A stretch of DNA of 64,000 nt, from contig CM068831.1 of NCBI GenBank assembly GCA_028554795.2, positions 63,516,982-63,580,981 on the forward strand, read 5' to 3'. The position numbers and the translations under genes were made by a program. This document shows positions 22,835 through 53,071 of this stretch, in pieces (within the stretch, counting starts at the first letter, position 1; each line of letters starts with the position of its first letter). This stretch comes from Sinohyriopsis cumingii (taxonomy: Eukaryota > Mollusca > Bivalvia > Unionida > Unionidae). The notes below the pieces were generated by a model that saw nothing but the letters and a program-made list of their open reading frames with translations, ran no database searches and was not told where the DNA came from.

Positions 22835-23290
22835 AGTAGTGAAGTGGGACGATATAGCGTCAATGGGACTTACCATTAAAAACCACCCTGGGACGATATA
22901 GCGTCAATGGGAAATTTAACATTGTGGAAACCCCTGGGATGATATAGCATCAAGGGGAATTTAACATGGGAATATGGGACTGTTTAGCGTCAAGGGGAAT
23001 TGAACAGGGTGGGACTGTATAGCGTCAAGGGGAATTTAACATGGGCAAAAAAAAAAAAAAAATCTTGGGCCTGTTGAGCGTCAAGGGGAAATGGAGCAGG
23101 GTCGGGACCCTATTTTAATAAGGTCCCGACCTGATGGGTCTATGGAAATGGAACAGGCGAAAATTGAAACAGGGAGGGGTCTCTATTTTTTATTTTTTTT
23201 AAAACAAAAAAAAAATAGAAAAAGGGTAGGCAGTGAAAGTCAAGATCTTTTCGAGACCTATGAGTGGCCCTGAAAAGGGCCTTTGGGTTT
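22835..23290 (+). repeat. terminal inverted repeat of element A, left
   Basis: Reverse complement of 32139-32593 with few differences. It holds six to seven degenerate units of ~35-47 bp with the phrase ATAGCGTCAAGGGGAATTTA, a GGGACC..GGTCCC inverted repeat near 23103-23126, A/T homopolymers, and at the inner end a histone-type stem-loop on the minus strand. The iterated phrases are candidate binding sites for replication or integration proteins (inference). Confidence 0.93.
23244..23281 (-). terminator. histone-type 3' stem-loop plus downstream box (left TIR)
   Basis: Read on the minus strand: GGCCCTTTTCAGGGCC (23281-23266) preceded by AAA and followed by ACTCA, then CGAAAAGATC (23253-23244). 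The match to the metazoan histone stem-loop (GGYYCTTTTCAGRRCC, then ACCCA) is near exact. It lies 23 nt after the stop of the minus-strand 76-codon gene. Confidence 0.85.
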
Positions 23291-23304
23291 ATGTTAATAT
23301 GCCC

Positions 23305-23535
23305 TTAACATAAAGGGCATCTGTGACTTCTTCTTGTCCTTAGGCTTCGCCTGACTGCAGGACCATAGACTAAAACTCTTTTGAGACATCCTTGCCTCTC
23401 CACATAGATCCTACGTATCCATAGGCTGGTATCTGTCCTATGGACAACTGTCCACTTGGATCGGACGTACATCGGTATGTCTGTCCTGAACATCATCGAA
23501 GACACAAGCGTAGAAGATTGAACGTTGGTCCACAT
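23305..23535 (-). CDS. small unknown protein, 76 aa, element A terminal gene
   Basis: The ATG at 23535 is chosen because a TATAAATA box lies about 45-50 bp upstream (23580-23587), which leaves the longer 5' extension of the frame untranscribed. The product is basic, especially at the end (RRSLRTRRSHR), and has no family I recognise. The stop lies 23 nt before a histone-type stem-loop that sits in the terminal repeat. This agrees with a real short transcript reading outward. It is divergent from the gene at 23732, with a shared promoter region. Without a second copy, coding status is plausible but unproven. Confidence 0.5.
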   Translation of the reverse strand: MWTNVQSSTLVSSMMFRTDIPMYVRSKWTVVHRTDTSLWIRRIYVERQGCLKRVLVYGPAVRRSLRTRRSHRCPLC

Positions 23536-23578
23536 GTTGAGGCGCCGAGAACAGGTGAAGGAATGCAGTGAACTACAC

Positions 23579-23684
23579 TTATTTATAGGGAGAGGAAGGA
23601 TTGAAACGGAGTTCACTGACCAATCCAAACACGCCCACATCCAATCCGAAGAGAGCAGTCTGTGACGTCATGTGGTCTATATAG
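23579..23684. promoter_or_regulatory. divergent promoter with CRE-type site
   Basis: The minus strand has CTATAAATAAG (23580-23588) for the 76-codon gene. The plus strand has TCTATATAG (23677-23684) for the gene at 23732. A perfect cAMP-response/ATF palindrome TGACGTCA sits at 23663-23670, just upstream of the plus-strand TATA. Confidence 0.65.
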
Positions 23685-23731
23685 ATTTGCTAGCACCTGT
23701 GTGCAGTCAATTCATGCGACAGTTTTTCAAC

Positions 23732-24304
23732 ATGACGGAAACTCAGAAAACGATAAATTGGGGTGCACCAGCTGTGGAGACTACCCAAGGGAAACCGGAC
23801 TTACTTTCAGAAGAGGTGAATTGGGATTTTGTGGATTTTCTTACCTCGCAAGAATTTGTTCCGGAACCTTCGTCACCTTCTCCTTCATTACCACACGTGG
23901 AGAAATTTAGACAGAGACAGAAAGAAGAATTGGAGAAATTTATACAACAGCAAAAGGAAGCGGAACAAGCTTTTCTCCTACAGCAACAGCAGCAAAAAGA
24001 AGAGGTAAGAAAAAAACAAGAAGAAGAAGAAGCAGCAGCAAAGAAACAAGGGTGTGAAAATCAAATGGTCACGGTACTGTTAGACATTTTAGCGGAGTTA
24101 AGAAGTCTGAAACAAATGTTATCAGACTTCTTTATTACGACCAAAGAGAATACGACCTTCCCGAGCTAAACACTCCAACCCTGTGACTAAGCCTCCCGTG
24201 CCACCCTTAGTGATTTCAACCAAATCATCATCATCAACACTACGCAGTCCAGAAGTAGGCCTTGGCCGTGGCAAAGGCTTAAGGCGGTTAAAGTTGATTG
24301 CTTA
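23732..24304 (+). pseudogene. Q/E-rich coiled-coil protein, one frameshift
   Basis: From ATG 23732 the frame begins MTETQKTINWGAP and contains a long charged, Q/E-rich coiled-coil (residues ~60-115, with QQQQQ and EEEEAAAKK) and a helical TVLLDILAELRSLKQML segment. The frame stops at 24169. In another frame the sequence continues with plausible coding content (PVTKPPVPP.., GLGRGKGLRRLKLIA) to a TAA at 24302-24304, so a single frameshift near 24155-24175 is likely. That second stop lies 22 nt before a histone-type stem-loop, the same spacing as in sister genes. No family recognised. Confidence 0.6.
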
Positions 24305-24326
24305 AACTCACCCCTACACCAAAAAA

Positions 24327-24364
24327 GGCCTTTTTCAGGGCCACCCACGTCTGTCGAAAAGAGA
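24327..24364 (+). terminator. histone-type 3' stem-loop plus downstream box
   Basis: GGCCTTTTTCAGGGCC at 24327-24342 (one G-U pair in the stem) is followed by the canonical ACCCA and, 13 nt after the stem, by GAAAAGAGA at 24356-24364. The GAAAAGAG box is complementary to the CUCUUUU segment known at the 5' end of animal U7 snRNA. This is the best textbook match of the six in the window. Confidence 0.88.
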
Positions 24365-24501
24365 TAGACTTTCAATTGCCAACATCCATTCAAACTATAA
24401 AAAAAAAACATTTTACCTCTGTAGTATGTGTGTATGAGTGTGTGAGTGTAGGTTCTTATTTTAAAATCAAAACCCAAAGACACTTACCTTTTAATACCTA
24501 A

Positions 24502-24507
24502 TTTATT
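24502..24507 (-). terminator. AATAAA polyadenylation signal (minus strand)
   Basis: AATAAA on the minus strand, about 130 nt after the stop of the zinc-knuckle gene. It contrasts with the histone-type ends of neighbouring genes. Confidence 0.5.
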
Positions 24508-24636
24508 CTTTTATAAATATTTACAATCCAATTCACAATTCACAACAGAGCACTTTAAAAAGTTCATAAACTTCTTCTGTCTCATTGTTCACTCTCTGAG
24601 TTTTTTGAATTTCTTCACCACCACAGTCTTTTCCTC

Positions 24637-25017
24637 CTATTCCTCCTCACTTTCTTCTCTTCTTCTTTTCTTCTCCTGTTTCTTTTTCTTCACCTGTTTT
24701 CTTCCTCTTCTTCCTCTGAAGAATCCCTCTCTTCTTCTGACTCCTTGTTTCTTTTTTGGGCAATCTGGAGACCAGTGTCCTTTTTCTTGACAATAATAAC
24801 AGGTATCTTGACTTTTGTCTTTTCTAGCCCCTTTTTTTCTTTTTTGACGGTCTGGACACTCTGAAGACCAATGCCCTTTCTTCTGACAGATATAGCAAGT
24901 ATCTTGACTTTTATCTTGAAAGGAAGGAGAGTAGTCCCTCGGCTGGTCTGAAGAGAATTTTTGGATGACCCCTCGCAAAGCTCTGATGAAACGTTCGATC
25001 TGGGTAGTCTCTTCCAT
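24637..25017 (-). CDS. CCHC zinc-knuckle protein, ~126 aa
   Basis: The ATG at 25017 (METTQ-type start) is preferred because a TATATAAAAG box lies at about 25073-25081, and the longer frame has only a GTG start. Two retroviral-type zinc knuckles are plain: CYICQKKGHWSSEC and CYYCQEKGHWSPDC, both C-x2-C-x4-H-x4-C, in adjacent KSQDTCY repeats. They are followed by a K/R/E-rich tail. CCHC knuckles bind single-stranded nucleic acid, so a role in genome or RNA binding is likely (inference). It is transcribed divergently from PolB and convergently with the gene at 23732. The frame is intact although PolB beside it is broken. Confidence 0.75.
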   Translation of the reverse strand: MEETTQIERFIRALRGVIQKFSSDQPRDYSPSFQDKSQDTCYICQKKGHWSSECPDRQKRKKGARKDKSQDTCYYCQEKGHWSPDCPKKKQGVRRREGFFRGRRGRKQVKKKKQEKKRRREESEEE

Positions 25018-25070
25018 CGTTGTGCTCGGTTTGAGAGTGAAATGAATAGTGAAAGGACAAGACACATACC

Positions 25071-25104
25071 CTTTTATATACGCTGGTCTGCTATGACTAT
25101 AAAT
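25071..25104. promoter_or_regulatory. divergent TATA boxes, zinc-knuckle gene / PolB
   Basis: Minus strand TATATAAAAG at 25073-25081. Plus strand CTATAAATT at 25097-25105, about 50 bp before the PolB ATG at 25152. The two TATA boxes are ~20 bp apart. Confidence 0.55.
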
Positions 25105-25151
25105 TAGTCCATGGTGTTTAAACTTTAGTCATTTGACATTTTGCTATCAAG

Positions 25152-28100
25152 ATGAAACGATCCAATTCATTTGAGAAGAAGGAAGAAGAAAGTAAGAGGC
25201 AGAAACGTGCTTTATCGCCTCGTACCAGGGCTGAAGTCTTGGCACAAATTCATGCCAGTGATTTTGAAGAGGACATGAGTGAACCAGAATCCAAACCCTC
25301 TAAACAAAGTTCACCACCCTTAGTCAACCGTGAAAAGTACTATTCCATTCAAGAGACGGAAGAGCATCCCTCTAGAAAATTTAGAACTACAGCTTACAAA
25401 TACACGGTGAAGTTTAAAGATTTCAAGTCCGAAGTACTGTTAGAGAAAGCAGAAGGGTTCATCACCGAGATGTGGATTGAAATGCTCAGCATGTTTGGCC
25501 TCTCCACCCTGTCTGAGCGAAGGACAAGAACGAGTGCATTGTTCAACTGGTCTGCGCACGTTTGTCAGCCCTGCCTGTTACCAACAACATTTGAAGATGC
25601 AAGGTTCACAGAAGAAATGTGCTTGTCAGCTGCTGAGATTGTGCCCTACCTGTGGACAAGGCATACTTACCAATAATGCCAAGGCACACCTGTGTCGAGG
25701 AAAGAAAAAATGTCACATTTGCTGCCACATCGTGGACTTGGAACACGAATGCTATGTGCAAAAATACCAACCCCAACCAGAGAAAGAGATCGGTCACAAG
25801 AAGAAAGGCAATTTCATCTTTTTCGATTTTGAATGCATGCAAGAGACTGGTATTCACATTCCTAATTTCTGCGTTGGTCATCGAGCGTGCGAGAAGTGCA
25901 TTCAAGAACCTATTTTCAGTCATTGCCTTCACTGCAGCAAGATTTCTGGAGGACGTGAAAAAATCTTTCGAGGACCGAACACGCTAGCTGATTTCGCTCG
26001 ATGGGTCTTACACCCCATCGACAAGACGTGGATCCAAGAGGACATCGAACGTTACGGAGATTGTCATCGTCATGCCACAGTGATGGCTCACAATTTCTCC
26101 GGATACGATGGACAGTTTCTTCACAGATACTATACAGAACATGGCACCGAACGTCCTAAAGTCACTTTGAATGGAGCCAAAATCATTTTCATGCAAGTGG
26201 GACAAGTACAGTTTAAAGATTCGATGAGTTACTTAGCCATGCCTTTGAGTCGAATGCCTAAAACGTTTGGAATGACAGAAATGGCTAAAGGGTGCTTTCC
26301 ACACTTTTTCAATACGGAAGCCAATCAACACACCGTTCTACCCCATTTGCCTGAGGCTCACTATTATGACCCTGACAACATGCGTACCGAACAACGAGAA
26401 GCTTTCTACGCTTGGTACCAGGCTCACGCCTCTGACCCTTTCGACTTTCAGGAAGAAATGCTAAAGTATTGTCGTTCCGACGTGGACATTTTACGGTGTT
26501 GCTGTGGAAAATTTTGAGAACTGTTCATGGAACACGGAGGGGTCGATCCTTTCAAAGAAGCTTGCACCATTGCCAAAGCATGTTCCTTAGTGTACCGGCA
26601 ATGATTCATGCCTGAAAACACCGTGGCTGTCATCAGTCCTCAAATGACCAACTATGTCAAACGTCAATACTCGGTCAAAGCCCTACGCTGGTTACATTAC
26701 TTGTGCGACAAGGAAGACAAATGGATTCAGCATGCCCGCAACGGAGGGGGTGAAAAGACCATCAGAATGCATTCGGTCGATGGTTGGGACTTAGAAAACC
26801 CCAAGATTGTGTACGAGTTTAAAGGTTGCTTATTTCACGGATGCCCCGTCTGTTACCCTGACCGTGGCACTAAAAATCAGTTTTTACAATGAACCATGGA
26901 AGACTTGTACCAGGCCACATGTCAGCAACGCCTAAAGTTAGAACAGGAAGGATACTAAGTGGTGGAAATGTGGGAACACGAGTACCATCACCGTTTGAAA
27001 ACCGATCCAGAGTTTAAACACCTCGTGGAAAGTTACCAGTTCATGGACCCCCTGAACACGAGGGATAGTTTGTACGGAGGAAGGACCAATGCCACCAGTT
27101 TGCTGTACCAAGCCGACGAAGAGAAAGGAGAAGAAATCAAATACTTGGACGTGTGTTCACTGTATCCCTACGTGTGCAAATATTGTCGCTTTCCTGCAGG
27201 GCACCCACAATTGTTGACGGAACACATCGATTTGAAAAACATTCGACAATATGAAGGCTTGATCAAATGTAAAGTTTTGGCTCCCACTGACTTGTACCAT
27301 CCCGTTCTACCTCACCATTGTCAAGACAAGCTGATGTTTCCTTTGTGCCGTACTTGTGCTGAAACGTGCAACCAAGACCAGCCTTGTCAGCACACCCAGG
27401 AAGAACGGGCCTTGACGGGGACGTGGGTCAGCGTAGAATTGTTCAAAGCTCTGGACATGGGATACCAACTGTTAGAAGTGTATGAAATTTGTCACTTTCC
27501 CAAGACAGAACAATACAACAAGGGTGACCCCACTCAGAAAGGCATTTTGGCAGACTACGTGGATGCCTTTTTGAAACTAAAGCAAGAAGCCAGTGGTTAT
27601 CCGTCCTGGTATCACACTCCCGAAGACCAAAAGACATTCAAAGAGAAATACTGGGCACAAGAAGGCATTACTTTAGATCACATCGAGAAAAACAAAGGCA
27701 GGCGATCGTTTGCCAAAGTGATGTTAAATTGCTTGTGGGGTAAAATGGCACAACGACCGTGTTTACCCAAGAATATTTGACAGAACCTTCCTGCTACTTC
27801 CAGATGATTCACAACAAAACTAAATTCATCAAACACGTGGACGTTGTTCGCGAAGATTTGATCTTAGTCAATTACGAAGAAGATCTGGACTTTGTAGAAG
27901 CCGATCCTTTTGGAAATGTCATCATTGCAGCTTACGTGACAGCTCATGCTCGCTTAAAACTGTACGAAGCTTTAGAACTGTTAGGGGAACGCGTCCTGTA
28001 CTTTGACACGGATAGTTGCATCTACATCGATCACCCGAGTCAACAGCACTCTAACATCGAAGGAGACCGTTTAGGAGCCTGGACAGACGAGCATTCTGAT

Positions 28101-28448
28101 GACAAGATTCTAAGTTTCGCCAGTGGCGGTCTTAAAAATTACGGCTACGAATACCGGGACAAACAAGGAGAAGTGCACACGAAGTGTAAAGTGAAAGGAT
28201 TGACTCTGAATTATCGTACCAGTCGAGTGGTGAACTTTGGCGTATTGAAAGAAGCTTTGCAGTCTAGAGAAGATGAACACTTTAAAGTGACCACCTATCA
28301 ACCGAACAAGATTGTACGTTTACCCACTGACCACATCGTCAGTCGACCCTTGGAAAAAGTCTGTCAAATCGTGTATCAGAAGTGAGTGCGGCTTCCCAAT
28401 CACTTTATATTGCCATATGGACATGTCGGTATAAAACATTGGTTGTAA
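25152..28448 (+). pseudogene. polB: protein-primed DNA polymerase B, broken
   Basis: A polymerase of family B of the Polinton/adenovirus type that would copy the element. Motifs are in order: Cys-rich N-terminal region (CPTCGQ..H.C..KKCHIC), Exo I FFDFECM near 25821, Exo II AHNFSGYDGQF near 26085, Exo III YCRSDVDIL near 26467, motif A DVCSLYP near 27148, motif [11 protein letters not shown] near 27717, motif C YFDTDS near 28001. The span is ~1,100 codons. It is interrupted by frameshifts near 25480 and 27765 and by stops at 26515, 26602, 26890, 26956 and 28383. The last is CGA to TGA when compared with element B. Confidence 0.95.
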
Positions 28449-28471
28449 GTGGATAGCCACTCACCAGAAGC

Positions 28472-28902
28472 ATGACTACGCCACAGCAAGAATCAAGTGA
28501 GAAACCTGATGAGAACTACAAGTTCAAACCCTACCATTTTCCAGTCTTCTTACCTGACTATTGTGATTGTGCCCGTCGATTGGACACATTTCAGAAATAG
28601 TTTACGGATAGGGAAGGATTACCTTCTTCGCATGTTTTAGCTAGAACAGGATTTGTCTACTTGGGACCTGAGTCAGGATTGGGATATGAAGTACAGTGTT
28701 TCGCTTGTGGACTGAAGTTACGAATGGATCTATGTATCTATAAAGGTTCAGCTATTCTGGAACACACTCGATGGTCTTTGCACTGCCCTTAACTTTCTAT
28801 GGCCTTTCCACCCATTACAATTATGACGGTACCTTAGAGACAGTACCTTCAAAAACTAGATATAAAAAAGGAACGATGTACAAGCTTGAGACTGCATTGT
28901 GA
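28472..28902 (+). pseudogene. BIR-domain (IAP-like) gene 1, broken copy
   Basis: Counterpart of the intact gene at 63309-63767. It has the same order: YCDCARRLDTF, then GFVYLGPES, CFACGLKL and the H..W..C end of a baculovirus IAP repeat. It is broken by TAG at 28598 where element B has Trp, by TAA at 28790 within the zinc-binding end, and by an indel of about 10 bp near 28815. A TATAAAA box ~35 bp upstream overlaps the end of PolB. Confidence 0.88.
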
Positions 28903-28969
28903 CTAGTATAAAAAGGGGCTATGGTCAAGATCGATAGTTCATTGTGACTACCAAGACCAAGCGAACAAG

Positions 28970-29605
28970 ATGAATCCTTTCAGAGAAACACAAAACAAGT
29001 TCAGAAAGGCACAATTCAAGTTTGGGGCTTCTGAAGTGGAATGTGATTGTGAGCCTTGCGATGGGAACGATGCTGTATGCTGTGACCTTAGCAATGCCGT
29101 AAAGCATCATGAGAACTTTGTTCTCACTACCCCTCTCATGGAAAGTGATGCTGTGCGTGTCAAACCTGAGGGATGCGAAAGCGATGCTGCTCGTCCTCTT
29201 GGACACTTTACTGGGTTTCATTTTAAATGTGGATGTTCACCTTCACGTCTACCCCCCTACGGATGTCATCCAGACTTGAGCAAACTCCTGTCCATGTCAC
29301 CCAGCCCTCATCGAAACGAACCTGTGAAAGACGAATATTCGTTCCCTGTGTGTTTGTCGGAATACTGCGACTTTGAAAATCGTCTTCAATCATTCAAATG
29401 AAAATGGCCAAAGTATCTGGGAGGACCGATCCCCAAAGAATTAGCCAGAGCCAGATTTTTCTACTTGCACGAAGGGGATAAAGTCAAGTGCTTCAGTTGC
29501 GGTGTGTCACTTCACCACTGGGAACCACAAGATTCGGCCTATCTAGAACATGCTCGTTGGTCACCGAATTGTCATTACTTACCCTTAGTGGGACCGAGAC
29601 ATTGA
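28970..29605 (+). pseudogene. Cys-rich plus BIR-domain gene 2, in-frame TGA
   Basis: The first part (143 codons) ends YCDFENRLQSFK at a TGA (29399-29401). The same frame then continues KWPKYLGG and a canonical BIR: CFSCGVSLHHW.., H, WSPNC in C-x2-C-x16-H-x6-C spacing, stopping at 29603. The same TGA is in the copy in element B. Compared with B, the amino-terminal Cys-rich segment is shorter by roughly 35-40 residues. A TATAAAAAGG box lies ~60 bp before the ATG. Confidence 0.85.
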
Positions 29606-29616
29606 AGTAACTTACC

Positions 29617-30049
29617 ATGTCGTTAAAGAAGAAACCAGATTGGTTAGGAGTCAAATGTTGGACATCATCGAGACCAGTATTTAAACTTCATTTCAAAAAC
29701 GATATTGAATCATTACCTAAAGAACTGCAAGAGAAGATTTACAAGGAAGTTTGGCAGGGGCTTGCCAGAGTGAAATCTCAATGGATAACTGTAGAACTTT
29801 TATTCCGAGAAATTCACAAGAGATAAGTGAAAAAAGTCAACCAGTGTGTTAGATTTCTCTGGGTCAAGGGTGCATTCATACTATTATATCGCTTTAGACC
29901 GTTTACATCAAAAGAGTTCAATGAGATTCTTGAACGTTACCCTGAATGGCAGTGGTCTGAAATTACTCACTATGTGGATTACTTTTGCTCTAGGAGAAGA
30001 TTGTGAATTGTACGTTTTAAGTGATGATCTTGGTAATATAAGATTTTAG
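29617..30049 (+). pseudogene. F-box-like protein, broken homologue of the element B pair
   Basis: ATG 29617 opens a 69-codon frame with SLPKELQEKIYKEVWQGL, matching the LPEELRERIYRELV segment of the genes at 62022 and 61491. After a stop at 29824, sequence in another frame (FNEILERYPEWQWSEITHY) corresponds to the IRELI..FFQWSDIVQH region of the B copies. It is therefore a frameshifted remnant. The LPxEL..I pattern is like the start of an F-box, but the assignment is weak. Confidence 0.55.
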
Positions 30050-30053
30050 TCTT

Positions 30054-30097
30054 AGGGGGATGTTTTCCTTCAGGTCTGCGCTTTAACTATAAGAACC
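30054..30097 (+). promoter_or_regulatory. shared terminal-gene promoter, copy in element A
   Basis: GGGGGATGTTTTCCTTCA then GGTCTGCGCTTT and CTATAAGAACC. The same block, with CGTNCGCGCTTT before the TATA, occurs three times on the minus strand of element B (52208-52251, 51359-51400, 50556-50598), each just upstream of a small helical-protein gene. In A the leader is split by the insertion at 30120-31498. Confidence 0.8.
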
Positions 30098-30119
30098 TAC
30101 AGTATTCGTCATTCAGACC

Positions 30120-31498
30120 GTGTGATCGACGAGAGAATCTAATCCGAAACCGGCTAAGCAATGAAATTATCTAAATTACACTAATAAATACTTACATAAA
30201 ATATATATATATCAAATTTGGACCAATGGCGAAGACAAGGATTCGGTCTCCCCGAACTCTCCATTTATGAGAGGCGAGTGTGATCGACGAGGGAATCTAA
30301 TCCGAATCTAGCCAAAAGTATTACAAAATAAATACACTCACAAAACAAGTACCAAATTCTGAACAATAGAAAAACTCATTTTATCAAAACTAGCCCACTG
30401 ACTGATAAAACTCTACAAACAAATATCATTAAATTAAAAAACACCTAGTTCAAATACCAGGAAGAAATATACAGGGGGTGGGTGGTGGGAAAAACAAAAC
30501 AAACCTTCTCCACTTCTCCTAACTTAATACTCACCTAACACCCTAACTAACAGCTCCAAAAGTCTATCTTCTACATAGGTGACAGCTAAGACAAAAACTA
30601 GGTATAACCATATAGTCCCAAAATAGAACGTAAAAGGTGGTCGCAAGAATAGACCATCAGGGATCCCCCGTATTAAGACCCTAAACTTACACATATAAGG
30701 TAGTCAAAAAAACCCAACGACTATCGGGCCCGGCGGCACAATGCTGCAAATATAACAAATATATAGAATACCACCCCAAAAATTACTTGTATAAGGTAGT
30801 CAAAAAAAACCAGTGACTATAGGGCCAGCAGCACAAGGCTGCAACCAAAATTTACAACTAGATAATTAGGACCCAAAAACAATTACTCAGTAAGATGGAA
30901 AAAACACCAACTCCATCCAGGGCCAGCAGCACAAGGCTGCAAAACCAATCGACAAATACTGTCACCTAAAAGCTAACATCGACCTCAATAGACTCTATCT
31001 CTCTTAAAAACAGCACAGAGTTTTTATGATTCAAAATTCCAAAGACGGAAATTTAGAACAAAAATACCCTGGATCAGAAAAACCCTGCTAACCTGTGGCA
31101 AGACAACTCCGCCCGAGCCTGACCACTTTCGCCCTTTGCGACGGACAGACATCAAAACACATACGTGCAGTGCACGCATCATAAATTAAAAATACGGACT
31201 AGATCGGGTCCAATCCCACTAGTCGCTAATCAATGCAAATGAATGACAGAGTGTGTGCTGGGTCCAATCCCACTCAAACAAAACATAGGCCTTACAATCA
31301 GATCGATGTGTACACAAAAGTACCTTGACCTGACGGCCCAATCAATTAGTGTTCTGTGAACACAGATATGCCTGGAGGAAGTGGCTCCATTCCTTCCTCC
31401 AAGGAGTAATCAGTTAGGTGCCTGTGGCATCATGAACCAGTGGTACATGCTCAATGCGAAGCGCACGCCACTATAATTCAACTCAACAACAACAACAA
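30120..31498 (+). mobile_element. 1.38-kb non-coding retroposon-like insertion
   Basis: The insertion splits the leader between the TATA box (30088) and the ATG (31533). It is flanked by an 11-bp near-identical duplication, TCATTCAGACC (30109-30119) and TCGTTCAGACC (31499-31509). It ends in ACTCAACAACAACAACAA, a (CAA)n tail as in many LINE/SINE retroposons. The 5' part holds a 158-bp direct repeat of GTGTGATCGACGAG.GAATC (30120 and 30278). The middle holds a hairpin array (30636-30945) and GGGTCCAATCCCACT twice (~31206, ~31259). The 3' part has hairpins such as GTGTTCTGTGAACAC. No ORF of note. Family not recognised. Confidence 0.8.
30636..30945 (+). repeat. array of covarying double hairpins
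   Basis: Units at 30699, 30795 and 30893 (period 96-98 bp), with a shorter relative at 30636. Hairpin 1 stems are GGTGGTC/GACCATC, GGTAGTC/GACTATC (twice, once imperfect) and GATGGA/TCCATC: the sequence changes but pairing is kept. GGGCC follows, then hairpin 2, GCAGCACAAGGCTGC or GCGGCACAATGCTGC. This looks like selection for RNA or single-stranded DNA structure. Confidence 0.75.
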
Positions 31499-31532
31499 TC
31501 GTTCAGACCATTCCACGGAATAAACAAAGAAG

Positions 31533-32129
31533 ATGGAGGTGACAAAATTACTCAATCTATTAAGAGATATCTATTTTTGGATAATGGATGTTGAATATGT
31601 TGTAGGAAGAATAGAAAAGGAATGGAGTGATGGAAATAGGCAAGACTTGTTAACTATTCAAGTCAAAGGACTAAAGGTGGCCGGAGATCTCATCGCAGGG
31701 ATGATAGAAGAAGAAGTCAACAAGTCAAGCGGATTTACTGACCCACCTTATGTCAGAGTGGGAAGTTTGAAGGAAGCACTGGACCATGTCATCCAAGTCG
31801 GGTGCTTCCTGGAAAAAGTATTGTATTGGATGAAGTGGTGATACGTAAAATGGGGGTTCGACCAGTTGACAAAAACGGAAGAAGTAATGAGGAAAGTGCT
31901 GACGGAAGAGGTAAAGAACATCAAAGAAAAGTGGTCTAAGGAAAGAAAAGAAGAAGAAAATAGAAAGAGAAAAAAAAGCTTTGAGAAACTCAACAATAAC
32001 TGGATAAGAATACAGGAGAAATTCCGAGTGATAGGTCATCCTGACTGGATGCCTGAGTCAGAAATAAAGAAGAAGATGACAGGAATATTGGTAAAAGTTA
32101 GAAGATGGTTGAAGAAGTGGAAGAGTTAG
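31533..32129 (+). pseudogene. small helical protein, terminal-gene family, in-frame TGA
   Basis: The frame from ATG 31533 (context AAGAAGATGG) is open for 102 codons, meets TGA at 31839, and continues in the same frame to TAG 32127, 198 codons in all. The first half (TKLLNLLRDIYF..VKGLKVAGDLIAGMIEEEVNK) has the heptad pattern of the three element B genes (L..L......L..V, then LK..DLI..L..EE). The second half (SLKEALDHVIQ.. and EEVMRKVLTEEVKNIKEK) looks like a second copy of the same domain followed by a lysine-rich tail. The stop is 18 nt before a histone-type stem-loop. Function unknown. Confidence 0.7.
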
Positions 32130-32138
32130 AAGAAGAAG

Positions 32139-32593
32139 AAACCCAAAGGCCCTTTTCAGGGCCACTCATAGGTCTCGAAAAGATCTTGACTTTCATTGCC
32201 TACCCTTTTTTTTTTTTTTTTTTTTTGTTTTAAAAAAAATAAAAAATAGAGACCCCTCCCTGTTTCAATATTCACCTGTTCCATTTCCATAGACCCATCA
32301 GGTCGGGACCTTATTAAAATAGGGTCCTGACCCTGTTCCATTTCCCCTTGATGCTCAACAGGCCCAAGATTTTTTTTTTTTGCCCATGTTAAATTCCCCT
32401 TGACGCTGTACAGTCCCACCCTGTTCAATTCCCCTTGACGCTAAACAGTCCCATATTCCCATGTTAAATTCCCCTTGACGCTATATCGTCCCAAGGGTTT
32501 CCATAATGTTACATTTCCCATTGACGCTATATCGTCCCAGGGTGGTTTTTAATGGTAAGTCCCATTGATGCTATATCATCCCACTTCACTACT
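32139..32593 (-). repeat. terminal inverted repeat of element A, right
   Basis: Inverted copy of 22835-23290, ending CCCACTTCACTACT. It carries the same iterated phrases, the same GGGACC inverted repeat and the stem-loop. The two arms differ at a small number of sites and in A/T run lengths. Confidence 0.93.
32148..32184 (+). terminator. histone-type 3' stem-loop plus downstream box (right TIR)
   Basis: AAA then GGCCCTTTTCAGGGCC (32148-32163), ACTCA, and GAAAAGATC at 32177-32185. It lies 18 nt after the stop of the gene at 31533-32129 and points outward. Confidence 0.87.
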
Positions 32594-32599
32594 ATTGAG
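32594..32599. repeat. 6-bp target site duplication, right copy (element A)
   Basis: ATTGAG, identical to 22829-22834, directly follows the last base of element A. Confidence 0.95.
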
Positions 32600-39579: not shown

Positions 39580-39649
39580 TAGATAAACTTTACAGTGGAG
39601 TTGGAGACTGATTCTGACTCATAATCTTAATTAAATCTAGAAAATAAAC

Positions 39650-40275: not shown

Positions 40276-40288
40276 ACAATTCCATTCT

Positions 40289-40602: not shown

Positions 40603-40615
40603 ACAATTCCATTCT

Positions 40616-43699: not shown

Positions 43700-43739
43700 T
43701 GTGGAATCGTTTTTGCACACAGTTTGCAGGATTTGTCTT

Positions 43740-43990
43740 TGGGTCATCGTTTTTCTTTTTCTTCATCTTTCTAGCTTATGGTATCTTGATAAGTCTTATG
43801 GTGCCGTGCAACTGCACTTGATGATTACCACAACCAGTGACATTGTATCAAATCTTCTGGGATCAGATGATTCAATGCAAATTCCACATAACCTATCACC
43901 ATCCTCATGTTTGCCATCTGACTTACTAAGTTATTTTGCCTAAATAATAATAAAAACAATCTGGTCTGATGTATTGATAGCGTTCTGAAT
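43740..43990 (+). pseudogene. possible LINE linker fragment (endonuclease-RT junction)
   Basis: The frame reads DIVSNLLGSDDSMQIPHN, then LPSDLLSYFA and IIKTIW. This resembles the 'NxLLG....xxP......LAxxFxxFFxxKI' linker before reverse transcriptase in CR1/Jockey LINEs. Short and isolated, so tentative. Confidence 0.35.
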
Positions 43991-46900
43991 GACCATAATA
44001 TATTCTCTGTATCTACCCTAGAAAATCCTGAGTGGATCGCTGTTTGGTTTTAATAAACCAAAGTAATCCAATGAAAGGCATTTTACAGACACAAGTGTCT
44101 GTTTCCTGTATGCAGTGATTAAATGATAGTATTATGTCTTTATTTTTTTAAAACTGATGATACATATGATCACCTTCAATGTGCAATATTAGTTATGTTA
44201 ATTAACGAGTGGGCAATATTTGAATTTCAAAGACAAAAGTGTATGCCATGATCACTTTAGTAGGATGATTTGTCAAGTGAGGTTATCTTTTCTGTTTGAA
44301 TAAATATTGTTAACTAAACTATTTTCGCAAGTTATGACATAAGAATGATTCAAAGAAAGAAAATTCATTAAATTGAACATATAAAATGTAATACTGCAAC
44401 AGAGTCTAGATGAACTATTTCTTCAGAGACACAATCCAGACTCTGTGGCAGCAAAATTATCAAATAGGACACAACTAAGAGACAATCACATTTTCAGTCA
44501 CAATGGTTTGACAATTATCAATGGCTTGAATTCATTGACTGTGAAGGCAAAGTGATTTGCAGTTACTGCAAAAAAAGTTCCCAAACTGTCACAGATTTTA
44601 AATTCTACCAGTGGACTTGTAAGTGTAACTGACAAATTCAGGATTTAATCAAGCAAGTCTCATGATAGTATTATACCTAATAAAGCAAAATGTAGCACAG
44701 TATATTCATGACACTTAGGCCAGCATGTACAAAATATTCCTCAAGTTACAGTTGCTAGCACTCCACTAAGAAATGTCATTTTATAATAAATAAAAATGTA
44801 ATGGAAAAAAAAATCGATAAAGTGATTGCACTCTTTAACATAGCCTACTACCTAACTCAATAATGAAAATGATTTGGTTCATTATATCTTTGTGTTTTAT
44901 GGAATAAATGCATACATCTGATTGAATTTTAGGCAAGAGACTGAACTTTTGGGTTAAGTTAAAATGTATGTGGAACAAATGCATTTTCTAAAACTACTTG
45001 TATCAGTGTGCATTGTGACTTTTCTTTAAGATAACTCTAAATGGTACTGGGTATATATCATTTTCTTCAACTGCACACTGTTGTCTTCCATTTGATTTGA
45101 TGACTTACAGCTATACTGTCTACACAGTAGGCCTCAGTATCAGGAAAAATTCTGTATACTTCAGTTACAGCTGAAATAAGTTTTGCATTAGTACCTGAAT
45201 CAGACAAAAAAGGTTGTGTTCTGGTGTGTGAATAGAAATGGCTAAAAGTAATATAGACAAAAGCCATAAGAGTACACAAGTTACATATGAAAACCACCAA
45301 TTCACTTGCATGTGTGGCATACAAGTTCAAAGATTTGCTTTATGTTTATTTGTGTACACACATTGTTCAACTCCTAAGATATTTTAAGAGCTATTTCTCT
45401 ATTGTATGCATAATTCATTTACAAATGTGATTAGTGGGCCACACCGAAGGCCATACTATTAGTTCACTTGGCAATATGGTAACGTCAGCTGAAAAGCATA
45501 ATCATCCATTAAAAGAGCATTATGATATGAACATTAGGTATTTAGAACATATAGATTTTTCTTTTCCAAATGGAGTCCAAGTAATTATTGCCCAATCCAG
45601 GTATAATTTTGTACACAAGTAAAGAACAAAATAAGATAAATCTTCATTTATTTGCAATTGACAATACACTTCTTAATGAATATACACTTTTACATTTATT
45701 TTGTATCACTTGAATAAACAGTATTTCTTTCAGTTCATTTTAAACTTTTATTTTATATCACTTGAGTAAACAATATCTCTTTCATTTCATTTAACACTTA
45801 GAAACAGGTTCTTCAAGTTACAATAATCAACTCTGGAAACAATAAACAAACTGGAACTTTTGACCTAATTATATTACATTTACTAGGGTTAAAACAATAA
45901 ATTCCTTAACATAATAAATTAACAGTTCCAGTTAATCAAACACAAAATCATCTTTTATACAGGGTGTGAACTGTTAATATTTACAGGGTAAAGCTTATAG
46001 TTTCCAAATTGATTGAAGCTTACATGTTTCAGTTGCTGGCACATATCTATTTCCAGCATGGTTTGCATACATTCCACCTTTAATAATTTTGTTACTTCCC
46101 TACCCCACCCCATTCAGTAACAAGTATCAAAAATCAGGCTCATTCTAAGGCAAAGTCTGTAACTTGTGTACCACAGTCATCAGAGTGACAAAGATGCAAA
46201 ACTTTATGATGCCTGTCAAAGGAAGAAAACAGTTTGTTGTTTACCCAAGTTTTGAACCAGTTAACTTGAATTCTCAGACCATCAATTGCTACAGCCCCAC
46301 TAATTACAATTGTTAGGGAATAATGAGAACTCACCTTCAGTTATCTGTGTATATATATAATTTTAATAACCAAGAATACCGGATGTCTGGGAACATTATA
46401 GCATTCAATGGTAACGTCAGAACTGAGATGAGAGAATTAAACAAGCATAGTACATGACATAATATATCCATAAACTATTAACTGGGAAAAATACTACAGA
46501 ACACCATTTCTGCTGGCAGTAAGATGTTGAACCTATATGTCATAAATATCAGGTTGGACATCTAAGACCAGTAATATTCATAATGGGCAGTACCCACCCC
46601 CCACCCCCCAAGTGAGAAGGGCCTGATTTGTAATCTAAGCCACCCAACCTATCACAGCCTTTATAGTACTTGAAACAAATATTGAGTAATAGTAAAACAA
46701 ACTCTGAAAGTTATTAAAACCAATTTGTTATATTTCCATAACTCTGCATAGTTAACTGTGCAAGCAGACTTAAACATATCAGTGTATGACAGTTAAATTG
46801 AGCTATAACATTGATTAACAGAAGCTACGAATTCATCAACAAGCAGTGAACAATCATCTTCACAATAAATGTCAAACATTAGCATCCATAAGCTGTCAAG

Positions 46901-47030
46901 ACAAGTTGTTACACTGGATATATAATCATCCATTTATTTCAAACAAGCTGTGAAAAACGAACCTCACGTCCGCTATATGTACGCTGGCCATTGCAAAGGA
47001 TGCTTTAATAGATTAATGTTTATCGTCGTG
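43991..47030. other. non-coding host DNA, no gene seen
   Basis: AT-rich. One stretch (45434-45622) is open and ends near a GT donor but has no clear family. G/C-rich CCCACCCCCC run near 46595. Confidence 0.45.
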
Positions 47031-47064
47031 TCTTGACAACCATTTTGCGCGCGCACACCGGAAA

Positions 47065-47190
47065 GTCATGCTATATATTTGTTACTTGTGAACGTATTCG
47101 TGGGCAGTACGCTATATATTGTTCCCGGGGCCGTGTTCGCGGGCAGAATGCTATATGTTTGTTCTTCGTGAACGTATTTTTGGGCAGTTA
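47065..47190. repeat. ~41-bp tandem repeat, three units
   Basis: Units start GCTATATATTTGTT at about 47070, 47110 and 47150 and each ends with GTGAACGTATTCGTGGGCAG or a close variant. GC-rich islands inside AT-rich DNA make it stand out. Confidence 0.8.
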
Positions 47191-47425
47191 CTTTGTCATC
47201 TTCAACCTAAAGGTCAAAACTGCCCATGAAATTTATATATCTGCCCACGAACCGAAAACATGAATAGGACTATAACATAAGTGTATATACTTATTTTCAA
47301 CATATACATAATTACTATGTAAGAAATACAACCTATGTATATGTATTTTGATTTGAAATGTAAACTATATCATGTCCTTCCCGTAAACCCACTTTCGGGA
47401 TGACTGCCCACAACGCACCTAAAAC

Positions 47426-47426
<1 letters not shown>

Positions 47427-47503
<77 letters not shown>
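47427..47503. repeat. (TA)n microsatellite, ~38 units
   Basis: Pure alternating TA. It is self-complementary and produces a spurious poly-IY ORF. Confidence 0.98.
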
Positions 47504-47506
<3 letters not shown>

Positions 47507-49068
47507 TCTTGAAAGGGAAACATCTTTAGATTTAGAAAATGCATGTTTATAATATAAAATGTTCTTTAATTCCATTCAGTAATGGTCATATGTGAACCTT
47601 GAAAATATTTCATCCTGCAAATGACCTGGAAATTAATCTTTAGAAAAGAGTGGGAGTCATGGTTATGGTAACTATTTCTATTTTAAATGTCTTCAAGGAA
47701 GTTAACGTTTATTCTAAAATATAGCTCGTGTGCAACCTATTTCTTATGAGTATTTTCAACCAACACATTTTTATGTATATTTGATTTAATTAATATTTGA
47801 TTTCATTTAGTTGTTTGTCTGTTAGTTTAAATTTTTCTTATTCCATTACATGTTATAGTAATGTAATTTTGTTACTGGAATTTTACATTTTCCAGGAAGT
47901 AGTTTGACCTGTTTTTTCATAAACACCTAAAAATAGAACTTTGTATCTTTATGCTGACCTAGTTCCTGACCTTGATTCAAAATTAGTAACAGTTGGAGTA
48001 AACAGCTTTGTTTTTTTAATTCATTCTTAATGTGTGATTTAAAGAGGGAAATCGATGCTGTATGGGAGTATGTGATGTAAAGCTTCTACCTTGTTCTGGA
48101 AAGTGATCACATGACCCTCATACAGGCATCTGTTTTGTGCAGTAGCTAGGTTTAATGTCAATGTTTTTAGAAATCATCTCAGTTGGGCTTTTAAACACTT
48201 AGATATCAAGGTGGATTTTTTCTGTTGTGACCAGTTGGAATTTTATTTTAATTTTTCTTCGAATTATTTGGATTCTAAGAGATTAATTCTTTTCCCAGGA
48301 GAATATTTGAGTGCTCATACAGAATTCTTGGACAAAGACATTTATTGAAATTTGATTCTGAATTCAAACACTGGAATATTATTGTTTGTGGATCAACAAA
48401 GAACTGTTGACACATCAGTGCTATACTGGCTACAGTATACGTCATCACATTCCATTTTGGATTTTCATTGGGACTTGAACTCAAATTCATTAGAACACTT
48501 TATTACTAGGACTTCTAATTCTTAATTCTTGGATTATTTTTGAATTTGATTCATAAAACTGTAAGTTCTTTTTTTTCTATTTTTACCTTGTTTTTCTAGG
48601 GAAATAAATTATTTGTTACTGTTTTTAAGAGCCTAAACACATAATAACATGTACTGTCAATAACCCTAAACTATATTTTACTGTTTCATTATCCTTTATG
48701 CATACCATTTTACATCCCCCATTGATCAGGAATCTTCATGTATTATACTCATCATCTCATCTTTTGGTTTTGTACTTTGATCACTCAATAATAGACCTTG
48801 TCATACGTAAAACATTTATCACATAACTTTTTGTTGTGCTTTATAGCCTTACAGTGCTGGCATGCCATAAAACCACAAAAAATTAATAAATCCATGATCT
48901 TGAATCTTGTACTATGAACTTGTTTCTTTAGTTTCTTTGTAAACACTGAGCATCTCGTGTGATAACTACAAATTGCCCATGAATAAATAAATTGTTGCAG
49001 AAGTGCGAAACATACCAAACATTCTTAGAATGGAAAGTGAAAGCAATTTGACTAAACAAAAAATAGAG
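47504..49068. other. non-coding host DNA
   Basis: AT-rich sequence. I see no gene, tRNA or transposon terminus. Confidence 0.45.
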
Positions 49069-49070
49069 TG

Positions 49071-49312
49071 GTCCCGGATGGCCAAGTGGTCTAAAGCACT
49101 CATCTTTACTGATCACTGCCAGTTCAAGTCTGTTCACATGGATTTGAGTCTCAGCCTCAGCCAATTTGGTTATGAGAAAGTTTGCCAGTAGTTGTCCATG
49201 GGTCGGTGGTTATAACCGTGGTTTTCTTTCACTAATTATACTGGCTGCCATGTATAGCTAGCTGATCATGTGCTGTAAAATGGTCTTAAACCCACAACAA
49301 CAGCAACAAAAA
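49071..49312 (+). mobile_element. tRNA-derived SINE
   Basis: The head GTCCCGGATGGCCAAGTGG resembles a Leu/Ser-type tRNA start, with a decayed B box (AGTTCAAGTCTG). The body continues with GAAAGTTTGCCAGTAG, GGTGGTTATAACCG and CTGGCTGCCATGTATAG, and ends in an ACAACAACAGCAACAAAAA tail. Its 3' half recurs at 42880. Confidence 0.75.
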
Positions 49313-49666
49313 TAAAGTCCTTTGATCATTACTATGTACAAAGTTTCCATTATATCTTGGTGAACTATTACATATTAAAACCAAGACAACACTTGCAATT
49401 TACGATCAGTTTCAGCTAACCATCTTTCTATTCCACAACCGAATGAATTAAGAAAGGTTTCTATGTTCGGGGTCACTGATTTGGAACAGAATCCCAAAGC
49501 AAACTAGAGAAAGTACAAATATCAATGAATTTGCTTATAATCAAATTCATTGGAGGAGTGGAGCATGTTTGATTTAACAATTACATTACTACTTAAAGCA
49601 TAAATTCTCAAACCTTCCACTTTATATCTTAAATTTATTCTACTGTATATACAGAATGGACCTACT

Positions 49667-49783
49667 ATGTTCTTACAAAAGTTTTTGTTAATTATGTCCA
49701 TATATATACAAGTACTTGAAGCATGTTCTTACAAAAGTTTTTGTTAATTATGTCCATATATATACATGTACTTGAAGCATGTT
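49667..49783. repeat. 56-bp direct repeat abutting element B
   Basis: Two copies (49667-49722 and 49723-49778) differ at one base, and the first bases of a third copy (ATGTT) follow up to 49783, where element B begins. The last six flank bases, CATGTT, are the candidate target duplication. The other end of B is outside the window. Confidence 0.88.
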
Positions 49784-50120
49784 AGTAGTGAAGTGGGGCA
49801 CCCTACGGACAATGGGAATTAGCATTACAGGGACCCCTGGGTCACTCTACGGACAATGGAAATTTAACATGGCGAAAAATCGTGGGTCAATCTACGGACA
49901 AGGGGAATTTAACATGGGAATAAATCGTGGGTCACTCTACGGACAAGGGGAATTTAACATGGGAATAAATCGTGGGTCAATCTAGCGTCAAGGGAAATTG
50001 AATATAGGATTTTTTTTAAAAAATAAAAAAAATAAAAAAATTTTTTTAAAAAAGGGGTAGGCAATTCAAAGACTATCTCTTTTCGAGATATATGGGGGCC
50101 CTGAAAAGGGCCTTTGGGTT
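49784..50120 (+). repeat. terminal repeat of element B
   Basis: About five units of ~45 bp with CTACGGACAAGGGGAATTTA and GGGTCA, then A/T homopolymers, GGGGTAGGCA and the stem-loop. Its layout is the same as in element A, but the core phrase is CTACGGACAA where A has ATAGCGTCAA. The unit next to the homopolymers has the A-type phrase TAGCGTCAAGGG. Confidence 0.88.
50076..50112 (-). terminator. histone-type 3' stem-loop plus downstream box (element B terminus)
   Basis: On the minus strand: AAA, GGCCCTTTTCAGGGCC (50112-50097), CCCCA, then CGAAAAGAGATAG (HDE core 50084-50076). It lies 17 nt after the stop of the gene at 50129-50509. Confidence 0.87.
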
Positions 50121-50128
50121 TTCTTCTT

Positions 50129-50509
50129 CTAATTTCTTCTTTTCCTCCACCAACTTCTTATTTTATCTCCAACACTCTTTCTCTTCTTTTTTTTCTCCTT
50201 CTCTTCTTTCTTCTCTTCCTCCTCCTCTTCTTTCTTCCTCTTCTCATTTTCCTCTTCTTTTTCAATTTTTTCGTTCCATGTTCTTATTCTTATCTTTTCC
50301 TCTTCATCCTCCTTCTCCTCCTTTATTTCTTTCAACAGATCACTGATGATTACCTTCATTTTTCGTAAATTGTTTATCTCCATCTTCACTCGATGGGGAC
50401 TATATGAATAGTGATCCTCGTTTAGGTTAACCAACATTTGCTCTATCATTCCTAAATTGTCGAGGACGTTTTGCAATTTTTCCATTTTGTCCATTTGGTT
50501 AGAAGCCAT
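50129..50509 (-). CDS. small helical protein EE3 (126 aa), terminal-gene family
   Basis: The ATG at 50509 has the leader context AAGAAGATGG, like its homologue in element A. The product begins MASNQMDKMEKLQNVLDNLG, with an N-terminal helical hairpin (residues ~8-70: KLQNVLDNL, IEQMLVNL, then NLRKMKVIISDLLKEIKEE). A highly charged K/E coiled-coil and a basic end (SWWRKRRN) follow. The helical pattern is shared with the genes at 50942, 51798 and 31533, so these form one family. The promoter block lies at 50556-50598 and the stem-loop is 17 nt downstream. No known function; a role early in infection or transposition is inference. Confidence 0.78.
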   Translation of the reverse strand: MASNQMDKMEKLQNVLDNLGMIEQMLVNLNEDHYSYSPHRVKMEINNLRKMKVIISDLLKEIKEEKEDEEEKIRIRTWNEKIEKEEENEKRKKEEEEEEKKEEKEKKKKRKSVGDKIRSWWRKRRN

Positions 50510-50555
50510 CTTCTTTGTATTCTTTGCAGAATGGTTTGAACAACGAGCACTGTGG

Positions 50556-50667
50556 GTTCTTATACGAAAAGCGCGAACGTGAAGGAAAACATCCCCCTAA
50601 AACATAAAATGGATCTTACCTAGATGATGACCCAACATCGCGCGTACGTGAAGGAAAACATCCCCCT
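50556..50667 (-). promoter_or_regulatory. terminal-gene promoter for EE3, with a second upstream copy of the block
   Basis: The minus strand has GGGGGATGTTTTCCTTCA, then CGTTCGCGCTTTTCG and TATAAGAACCCACAG (50598-50549). A second GGGGGATGTTTTCCTTCA with CGTACGCGCG lies at 50667-50640 without a TATA box. Between them is ATCTTACCTAGATxATGACC-type sequence (plus strand) also found at 51410-51432. Confidence 0.8.
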
Positions 50668-50873
50668 ACTTTCTCATTTCATATAATAAAACCCTAACTA
50701 TACTCTTCACATACGCTAAGAAACCCATAATCTACTATTCACACTAACATACCTGAGCTCTTACAAACACAAACACACAAACACACAAACTCATACCCTC
50801 ACACTATCTAAAATAAGAGTTAGTGTTTATATACACACTACTCTACCTACACACATTGGCAAATTAATAGTTA

Positions 50874-50911
50874 TTTCTTTTCTAGAGTATTGGGTAGCCC
50901 TGAAAAGGGCT
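50874..50911 (-). terminator. histone-type 3' stem-loop plus downstream box (EE2)
   Basis: On the minus strand: AACAGCCCTTTTCAGGGCT (stem-loop 50911-50896), then the canonical ACCCA and TAGAAAAGAAATA (HDE core 50882-50874). It lies 30 nt after the stop of EE2. The stem differs from the TIR version (AGCCCT/AGGGCT against GGCCCT/AGGGCC), so both arms have changed together. Confidence 0.9.
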
Positions 50912-50941
50912 GTTTTTGTTTGGAACTTCATGGACACCTGG

Positions 50942-51304
50942 TTAATGGTGGCACCTTCCAGGCCTTGCGCCACATACACATCTTATCCCCCAGTTACTTT
51001 TTACCTTTTGGGGGCAGAGAGCAGAGGCAGGATATGTCGCGTCAGAATCCCAATTTTCGCTCTCTGGGATTTTGAAATTTCTTCTCTCCTTTTCCTCCTC
51101 CTCTTCTTTGTTTCTTCTTTCCTCTTTATATCTTCTTTCTTCTTCTTCTTTATATCTTCTCTCCTCCTCTTCTTTCTTTCTTCTTTCCTCCTCTCTTACC
51201 CTTCCCTCCTCTACAATGGCTTCCGCGGCCAGTTCATTTAATATGCGCCTGGCATATTCCAGATGCACATGAAGCTCCAACAGTTTCTCAAGTCTCGTGT
51301 TCAT
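50942..51304 (-). CDS. small helical protein EE2 (120 aa)
   Basis: The first true ATG is at 51304 (MNTRLEKLLELHVHLEYARR); the longer frame starts only at a TTG. A helical N-terminus (EKLLELHVHLEYARRILNEL) is followed by a long E/R/K repeat region (EEERR.KEEEERRYKEE) and a Cys-containing end. It belongs to the family with EE1 and EE3 by position, promoter, helical start and 3' stem-loop, although the second helix is replaced by the charged repeat. It lies between EE1 and EE3, each as a separate transcription unit. Confidence 0.7.
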   Translation of the reverse strand: MNTRLEKLLELHVHLEYARRILNELAAEAIVEEGRVREEERRKKEEEERRYKEEEERRYKEERRNKEEEEEKERRNFKIPESENWDSDATYPASALCPQKVKSNWGIRCVCGARPGRCHH

Positions 51305-51358
51305 TCTTCTGGCTGTGTTGATCAATCAACAAGGGTAGCTGGACTGCCGAACGAGTTT

Positions 51359-51400
51359 CAATTTATACTGAAAGCGCGTACGTGAAGGAAAACATCCCCT
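51359..51400 (-). promoter_or_regulatory. terminal-gene promoter for EE2
   Basis: The minus strand has GGGGATGTTTTCCTTCA, then CGTACGCGCTTTCAG and TATAAATTG. The spacing between the CG-rich box and TATA is the same as in the sister promoters. Confidence 0.82.
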
Positions 51401-51722
51401 AAAAAACATAAAATTCATCTTACCTAGATCATGACCAAAAAACATCAACAACGCGCGGACCTAAAAGAAACACTCGCTCACTTTTTTATGCTACCCATCA
51501 CTTCAATAGACTATCCACATACGCAAAGCAATCCAATCTAACCCAAAATATACACCTCAAACAGCCCAAAAAACAAACATCATTTTAATCTACTATCCAC
51601 ACCAACCTACTTTATCACTTACAAACACAATCACACCAACACATACCCTCAAAATTTTTAAGAAAGAGTTAGTGTTTATTTTCACACTACTCTACCTACA
51701 CAAATTGGCAAATTAATAGTTA

Positions 51723-51761
51723 TTTCTTTTCTAGAGTATTGGGGTAGCCCTGAAAAGGGCT
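51723..51761 (-). terminator. histone-type 3' stem-loop plus downstream box (EE1)
   Basis: The minus strand has AACAGCCCTTTTCAGGGCT (stem-loop 51761-51746), then ACCCCA and TAGAAAAGAAATAAC (HDE core 51731-51723). It lies 36 nt after the stop of EE1. Stem-loop, HDE and ~40 bp beyond are nearly identical to those of EE2, so the gene blocks were duplicated with their 3' ends. Confidence 0.9.
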
Positions 51762-51797
51762 GTTTTTTTGTTGTTTTTTTTGCTATGGCATTCTTTT

Positions 51798-51922: not shown

Positions 51923-51953
<31 letters not shown>

Positions 51954-53050: not shown

Positions 53051-53071
53051 TGATTTGTGTTTTTTTCTTCT

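Follow-up and report, generated by a model that had tools for sequence, protein, structure and literature searches.

By one account, histone messages stand alone among the protein-coding mRNAs of animals in carrying a stem-loop end in place of poly(A) (PMC6303110). A 64,000-nt stretch of the genome of the unionid bivalve Sinohyriopsis cumingii (contig CM068831.1; hereafter, the window) raises the question of why small, non-histone genes in two virus-like transposons of the Polinton type should end in hairpins of the histone kind. The original prediction, made from the letters of the window alone, placed such hairpins after six genes in the two elements and suggested that the transcripts are processed by SLBP and U7, lack poly(A) and are linked to S phase. 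The hairpins are confirmed here, and sequence evidence, to the extent of its reach, supports the interpretation.

Histone-type hairpins behind small Polinton genes

The whole window was compared with 4,227 Rfam families. The family of histone 3' untranslated region stem-loops, RF00032, gave six matches at E ≤ 10 (E 4e-4 to 3e-7), which are exactly the six predicted hairpins at the predicted positions and on the predicted strands; the best match of any family after them had E 0.87. Two of the six pass the curated RF00032 cut-off of 34 bits (individual scores are given in Table 1), and a pattern search of the window allowing up to three mismatches recovered six hairpins against 0.14 expected from shuffled sequences. 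Each has a stem of 6 and a 4-nt U-rich loop, as in RF00032. The division into two sequence types holds for five hairpins (GGCCCTTTTCAGGGCC three times and AGCCCTTTTCAGGGCT twice) and fails for the one at 24327, which reads GGCCTTTTTCAGGGCC with one U-G pair. The stem had also been described as changed on both arms; it is, although only at the outermost pair, where G-C becomes A-U.

All six hairpins lie on the strand of the gene upstream, with 64–158 open codons before each and, in coordinate order, gaps of 23, 21, 18, 16, 30 and 36 nt between stop codon and hairpin, close to the 17–36 nt that had been given. A frame ends before every hairpin, as predicted, although gene D and the right-end gene of element 1 are broken in this copy: the open reading frame (ORF) of gene D at 23714-24169 stops 157 nt before the hairpin, and a different frame ends 21 nt before it. 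Gene D is uninterrupted in 12 sampled copies. Frames of at least 64 codons end 16–36 nt upstream of 5.2% of positions (2,449 of 47,516, counting both strands of both elements) versus six of six hairpins, a comparison in which both the range and the codon threshold were chosen after the six hairpins had been inspected. Downstream, an exact GAAAAGA box stands 12–14 nt past the hairpin in all six cases, within the 10–20 nt or so foreseen for a box of this type. The immediate 3' flanks, again in coordinate order, are ACTCA, ACCCA, ACTCA, CCCAT, ACCCA and ACCCC, so that the ACCCA or ACTCA claimed for most hairpins is found in four, the exceptions being those at 50097 and 51746. These six hairpins are not independent of one another, because the pair at 23266 and 32148 is a single hairpin present in both terminal repeats of element 1 and those at 50896 and 51746 have 3' flanks that are 96% identical.

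Element 2 runs past the window into the adjoining locus L033, and when complete it holds five hairpin genes: A, B and C beside the protease and capsid block, and D and E at the opposite end, with hairpins in L033 starting at 4699 (minus strand) and 5802 (plus strand). At each end of both elements the outermost hairpin, belonging to gene A or gene E, falls within the inverted terminal repeat, so that the two outward-facing genes use copies of one repeated 3' end.

Five gene families bear hairpins in all, and their proteins are small, charged and, by eye, often coiled-coil-like. Purifying selection is evident between copies, taken as found and with frames left unrepaired, in the four families covered: the ratio of non-synonymous to synonymous differences (pN/pS) is 0.15 for A (n = 8), 0.33 for B (n = 6), 0.39 for D (n = 12) and 0.19 for E (n = 17). 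A shared upstream motif occurs five times in the window at up to three mismatches, with none expected, before genes A (twice), B and C and the right-end gene of element 1, and nowhere else in the window; in the last case the sequence between motif and gene appears, by eye, to have been inserted. In searches with the proteins of genes A, B and C and the 80-amino-acid right-end frame, no Pfam family scored above its cut-off and no histone family appeared at E ≤ 0.1, which rules out captured histone genes as the identity of these four. At E ≤ 1 the protein collection contained one homologue of gene A and two of gene E, the nearest named relative of the gene A protein being in the freshwater mussel Sinanodonta woodiana. 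One gene E homologue (P0123) runs on into KPFSGPL...LLEN, which, judged by eye only, fits a hairpin and box after the gene. The predicted structure of protein E is of low confidence, with a predicted local distance difference test score (pLDDT) of 69.6 and a predicted template modelling score (pTM) of 0.44. Genes D and E appear by eye to be transcribed divergently from a short common region (window 23640-23714) that contains TGACGTCA and a TATA-like stretch.

The host H2B gene and hairpins across the genome

The host's own histone 3' end provides a yardstick. A tandem histone H2B array with units of 1,851 bp and seven hairpin positions was located at C1:5072900-5079500 (locus L013), its 127-amino-acid frames having been named H2B by eye from the protein sequence. 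In four of four copies the identical GGCCCTTTTCAGGGCC stands 27 nt after the stop codon and is followed by TAAAAGA at element-like spacing, so that AAAAGA is present in both the element box and the host box. RF00032 scores the host H2B hairpins at 37.2 bits, a value exceeded by 14 of 36 element matches in the same run (maximum 42.5). No H2A, H3 or H4 genes were found in the fetched host loci, and the yardstick is thus H2B alone.

The likeness to the 3' ends of animal replication-dependent histone mRNAs extends to the 6-bp stem, the UUUC loop, the A-rich 5' flank, the mostly ACN or AGC 3' flank, the purine box at 12–14 nt, the short gap after the stop codon and a 16-mer identical to that of host H2B; the difference is that the element genes are non-histone and reside in a mobile virus-like element. 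In excerpts of published work, the mouse H2a downstream element has a purine core, AAAGAG, that pairs with the 5' end of U7 (PMC7026596), and in another bivalve, Lucina pectinata, histone mRNAs reportedly carry the stem-loop and, in some cases, a purine-rich element (PMC6210712).

Scanning the 2.9-Gb host genome with the 16-mer hairpin at up to two mismatches gave 67,529 near-matches (33,358 forward, 34,171 reverse), versus 1,291 (642 and 649) for the reversed pattern as control. We then characterized 88 hairpins that match at up to three mismatches; the sample excludes the H2B array and includes the six of the window. With the exception of L033 and L118-L120, the sampled loci were picked at exact 16-mer matches, all on contig C1, and conservation of the hairpin itself is biased upward for that reason; the box played no part in the choice. 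Four related Polinton contigs (L001-L004) and the overlapping loci L007 and L014 were left out of the 88 and of the gene-family counts, the H2B array was counted separately, and hairpins were excluded if they lay at most 60 nt from the start of a locus or had fewer than 80 nt of sequence following the hairpin start.

Exact GAAAAGA at +12 to +14 was present after 79 of the 88 hairpins, and the nine others comprised five with at least two mismatches, which look like chance matches, and four exact 16-mers. A frame of at least 60 codons ended 7–40 nt upstream of 75 hairpins. The original prediction had named a lack of enrichment at gene ends in related elements as refuting it; within this genome the hairpin counts and these frame ends did not refute it. 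The outermost stem pair was G-C in 71, A-U in 16 and mismatched in one; four of the A-U hairpins and the mismatched one are among the chance-like hairpins that have no box. Among 65 distinct cassettes, for which a box at up to two mismatches was required beforehand, column identity was 0.98 in the box, 0.71 in the spacer, 0.65 at +21..+34 and 0.43 at +45..+62. RF00032 gave 15 matches in loci L005-L012, of which 10 were above the cut-off (L006 and L007 overlap). A diverged gene E end, recognized by eye at position 8003 of L120, carries the hairpin GGCTCTTTTCAGGGCC and a box; the stretch in question was retrieved because it lies close to the H2B array, not because of a hairpin. Viral contigs of IMG/VR served as a further control: of 65 places where they contain the exact 16-mer, none had AAAAGA, GAAAAG or AAAGAG within 30 nt, and none had an ACC flank.

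A TTGCC-like stretch also recurs about 35–45 nt past the hairpin in element cassettes, and TTGC is similarly placed after host H2B.

Probable processing by the host histone machinery and rival explanations

On the strength of what the sequence establishes—the hairpin, the box, their spacing, their position behind genes, the match to H2B, their conservation and the purifying selection on the genes—we consider it probable, with good confidence, that a class of small Polinton genes at both element ends is made as histone-type messages by way of host SLBP and U7. Processing of the hairpin transcripts by this route is very likely, and we infer it from the signals in cis together with the H2B 3' end of the host. 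Transcripts of the small genes would carry the stem-loop and purine box; host SLBP would bind the hairpin, and the host U7 small nuclear ribonucleoprotein (snRNP) would pair with the box and cut 4–5 nt past the hairpin, the distance given for histone pre-mRNA in an excerpt on the U7 snRNP (PMC7026596). Cleavage would leave an mRNA that, we infer, lacks poly(A), and the likely benefit would be expression, export and turnover in step with histone mRNA during S phase, a time at which the element is able to replicate. As a guess, the small proteins may be early or regulatory ones needed during host DNA replication.

The structural genes appear to be set apart from the hairpin genes, in a block that ends in AATAAA (116 nt past the stop codon of the protease gene); neither AATAAA nor ATTAAA was found within 400 nt of genes A and B. 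A wider reading, which we favour with some reservation, is that a virus-like lineage has adopted the animal histone 3' end as the norm for a whole class of genes, tying five genes to the S-phase programme through SLBP and U7, while its structural genes keep poly(A) ends of the usual kind; given that copies number in the tens of thousands, the histone-processing machinery of the host may meet more element hairpins than histone ones. If true, stem-loop ends on non-histone genes of a mobile virus-like element would break the histone-only rule, would represent a new way for a relative of DNA viruses to follow the host cell cycle, and would offer naturally diverged sequences with which to probe the requirements of SLBP and U7.

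Several observations weigh against processing by the host histone machinery. Searches of the host genome at E ≤ 0.001 with RF00066 (U7) and PF15247 (SLBP) found no match, although the 14 control genomes were silent as well; a U7-like pattern gave 16 genomic matches versus 23 for its control, and none of ten examined resembles U7. Four of the six window hairpins score below the Rfam cut-off. Among the sampled hairpins, four exact 16-mers (in L009, L048, L051 and L052) have an altered or missing box, 13 of 88 have no frame of at least 60 codons ending in the 60 nt upstream, and about a third (28 of 83) have AGC in place of ACC as the 3' flank. The four related Polinton contigs, L001-L004, which are contaminants in bacterial metagenome-assembled genomes, gave no RF00032 match at E ≤ 1; they are a poor test, and a weak negative at most, because no terminal-looking inverted repeats were seen in them and ORF listings covered just L001 and L002. 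Finally, AATAAA lies 118 nt past the stop codon of gene C, and AATAAA or ATTAAA follows within 150 nt of 17 of 84 sampled hairpins, on account of which polyadenylated read-through may occur. The same 17 hairpins lend some weight to an explanation that we regard as unlikely, namely that the captured histone 3' end is mainly a compact terminator, with many transcripts polyadenylated further down and no link to S phase; the other 67 of 84 have no such signal, and spacing and box are kept as the flanks diverge.

A role of the hairpin at the DNA level, such as helping the terminal repeats to replicate or recombine, with its place after genes being secondary, is very improbable. Element 2 does have two of its five hairpins in terminal repeats, but three are internal, all six window hairpins share the orientation of the gene before them, and box and spacing resemble the host histone 3' end. 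We give as little credence to hairpin transcripts acting as a sponge for SLBP or U7 that disturbs the host's histone supply whatever the proteins do: the sheer number of near-matches in the genome would suit such a role, as would the fact that most sampled hairpins outside the H2B array come after frames of the element gene families, but these frames are conserved as proteins, with the pN/pS values of 0.15–0.39 given above. Chance inverted repeats, or an artefact of a single expanded repeat, are the least credible explanation, for although many sampled copies are closely related and the window pairs are not independent, five gene families carry the hairpin, the diverged gene E end in L120 (a gene identified by eye) was met independently of it, and a chance origin is rejected by the far lower yields of the shuffles and of the reversed pattern and by the lack of a box at all 65 chance copies in IMG/VR.

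The elements, their relatives and other features

Both elements have 6-bp target duplications and terminal inverted repeats. The duplication of element 2 is CATGTT (49778-49783 in the window and 6082-6087 in L033), and its terminal repeats, at window 49784-50122 and L033 5792-6081, are 82% identical over 340 columns. Together with the rve integrase, the A32-type ATPase and the double jelly-roll capsid, these are features of Polintons, Mavericks and adintoviruses, and the assignment to Polintons made in the original prediction stands. The predicted capsid model (pLDDT 86, pTM 0.87) has Sputnik as its best PDB match and also matches the double jelly-roll capsids of mavirus and PBCV-1; its closest relatives with names, among the best 120 of 864 matches, are in clams, oysters and a periwinkle. 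Element 1 contains a putative protein-primed DNA polymerase B, read by eye from the ORFs.

Table 1. Features of the two Polinton elements; positions refer to the window, and scores in bits are for RF00032
Feature	Position	Strand	Remarks
Element 1, Polinton	22835..32593		9.76 kb, internally deleted and decayed; flanked by ATTGAG at 22829-22834 and 32594-32599
Element 2, Polinton	49784..64000 plus 6,081 bases beyond the window (L033)	-	20,298 bp in total
Hairpin after gene E, left terminal repeat of element 1	23266..23281	-	37.1 bits
GAAAAGA box	23246..23252	-	13 nt after hairpin 23266
Hairpin after gene D, element 1	24327..24342	+	29.0 bits
GAAAAGA box	24356..24362	+	13 nt after hairpin 24327
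Hairpin, right terminal repeat of element 1	32148..32163	+	37.1 bits
GAAAAGA box	32177..32183	+	13 nt after hairpin 32148
Hairpin after gene A, terminal repeat of element 2	50097..50112	-	32.1 bits
GAAAAGA box	50078..50084	-	12 nt after hairpin 50097
Hairpin after gene B	50896..50911	-	31.0 bits; A-U closing pair
GAAAAGA box	50876..50882	-	13 nt after hairpin 50896
Hairpin after gene C	51746..51761	-	29.3 bits; A-U closing pair
GAAAAGA box	51725..51731	-	14 nt after hairpin 51746
Gene E, element 1	23305..23640	-	Basic C-terminus
Gene D, element 1	23714..24305	+	MTETQK family; interrupted here, with 24305 as the end of the last frame
Right-end gene, element 1	31533..32129	+	Coiled-coil type by eye; two frames, 31533-31841 and 31887-32129
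Gene A, element 2	50129..50509	-	MASN family; 126 amino acids, charged
Gene B, element 2	50942..51304	-	MNTR family; 120 amino acids
Gene C, element 2	51798..52157	-	MCSK; 119 amino acids
Upstream motif before gene A	50568..50595	-	Second copy at 50637-50664
Upstream motif before gene B	51371..51398	-	
Upstream motif before gene C	52221..52248	-	
Upstream motif before right-end gene, element 1	30057..30084	+	About 1.4 kb before the gene
Adenain-like protease	52490..53050	-	Weak Peptidase_C5 match, E 0.013, below cut-off
Major capsid protein	53564..54874	-	Predicted double jelly-roll fold
Integrase	56668..57780	-	rve core and chromodomain
Packaging ATPase, A32-type	59940..60698	-	Pox_A32 match

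Searches of IMG/VR with the capsid found no relatives, and hairpin-plus-flank patterns gave no matches there. The open-licence literature yielded no earlier interpretation of histone-type ends on Polinton genes, although an earlier report may exist, and the parts of the Polinton, Maverick and adintovirus literature that were found do not mention such ends. The original prediction knew of no description. One source, as excerpted, tallies six RF00032-type matches for Polinton-like viruses or virophages, with none in cryptophyte elements; the tally is a bare figure among several classes of non-coding RNA, neither placed at genes nor interpreted in that excerpt. Mollusc viral elements have been tied to histones in another way, in that elements of the adomavirus type, including one from a clam dataset that has adintovirus-like virion proteins, carry a gene called 'Histoid'; there the link is a histone-like protein, and the words 'stem-loop' and 'polyadenylation' are absent from the portion of text available (PMC11071296). 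An excerpt on coronavirus genomes lists a histone3 match of 14.7 bits against a cut-off of 34, within a coding region (PMC7786107), which looks like chance.

Among the related contigs, L002 (a Bathymodiolus symbiont assembly) has a weak twister-P1 ribozyme-like match of 28.9 bits (cut-off 67.2) at 11734-11798, just past the capsid gene. Element 2 also carries a gene with a BIR domain (inhibitor of apoptosis) at 63309-63767; sequence related to it by eye lies at 62710-63249 and, as remnants, in element 1 at 28490-28800 and 28970-29600. A CCHC zinc knuckle gene occupies 24637-25017 on the minus strand of element 1, and two neighbouring paralogous genes of element 2, at 61491-62009 and 62022-62477, are 84% alike in DNA over 210 bases. 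Tandem repeats of about 45 bp lie near the element ends within the terminal repeats (22844-23107, 32370-32593 and 49837-50014), and a diverged array of repeats of about 365 bp spans window positions 3800-6750.

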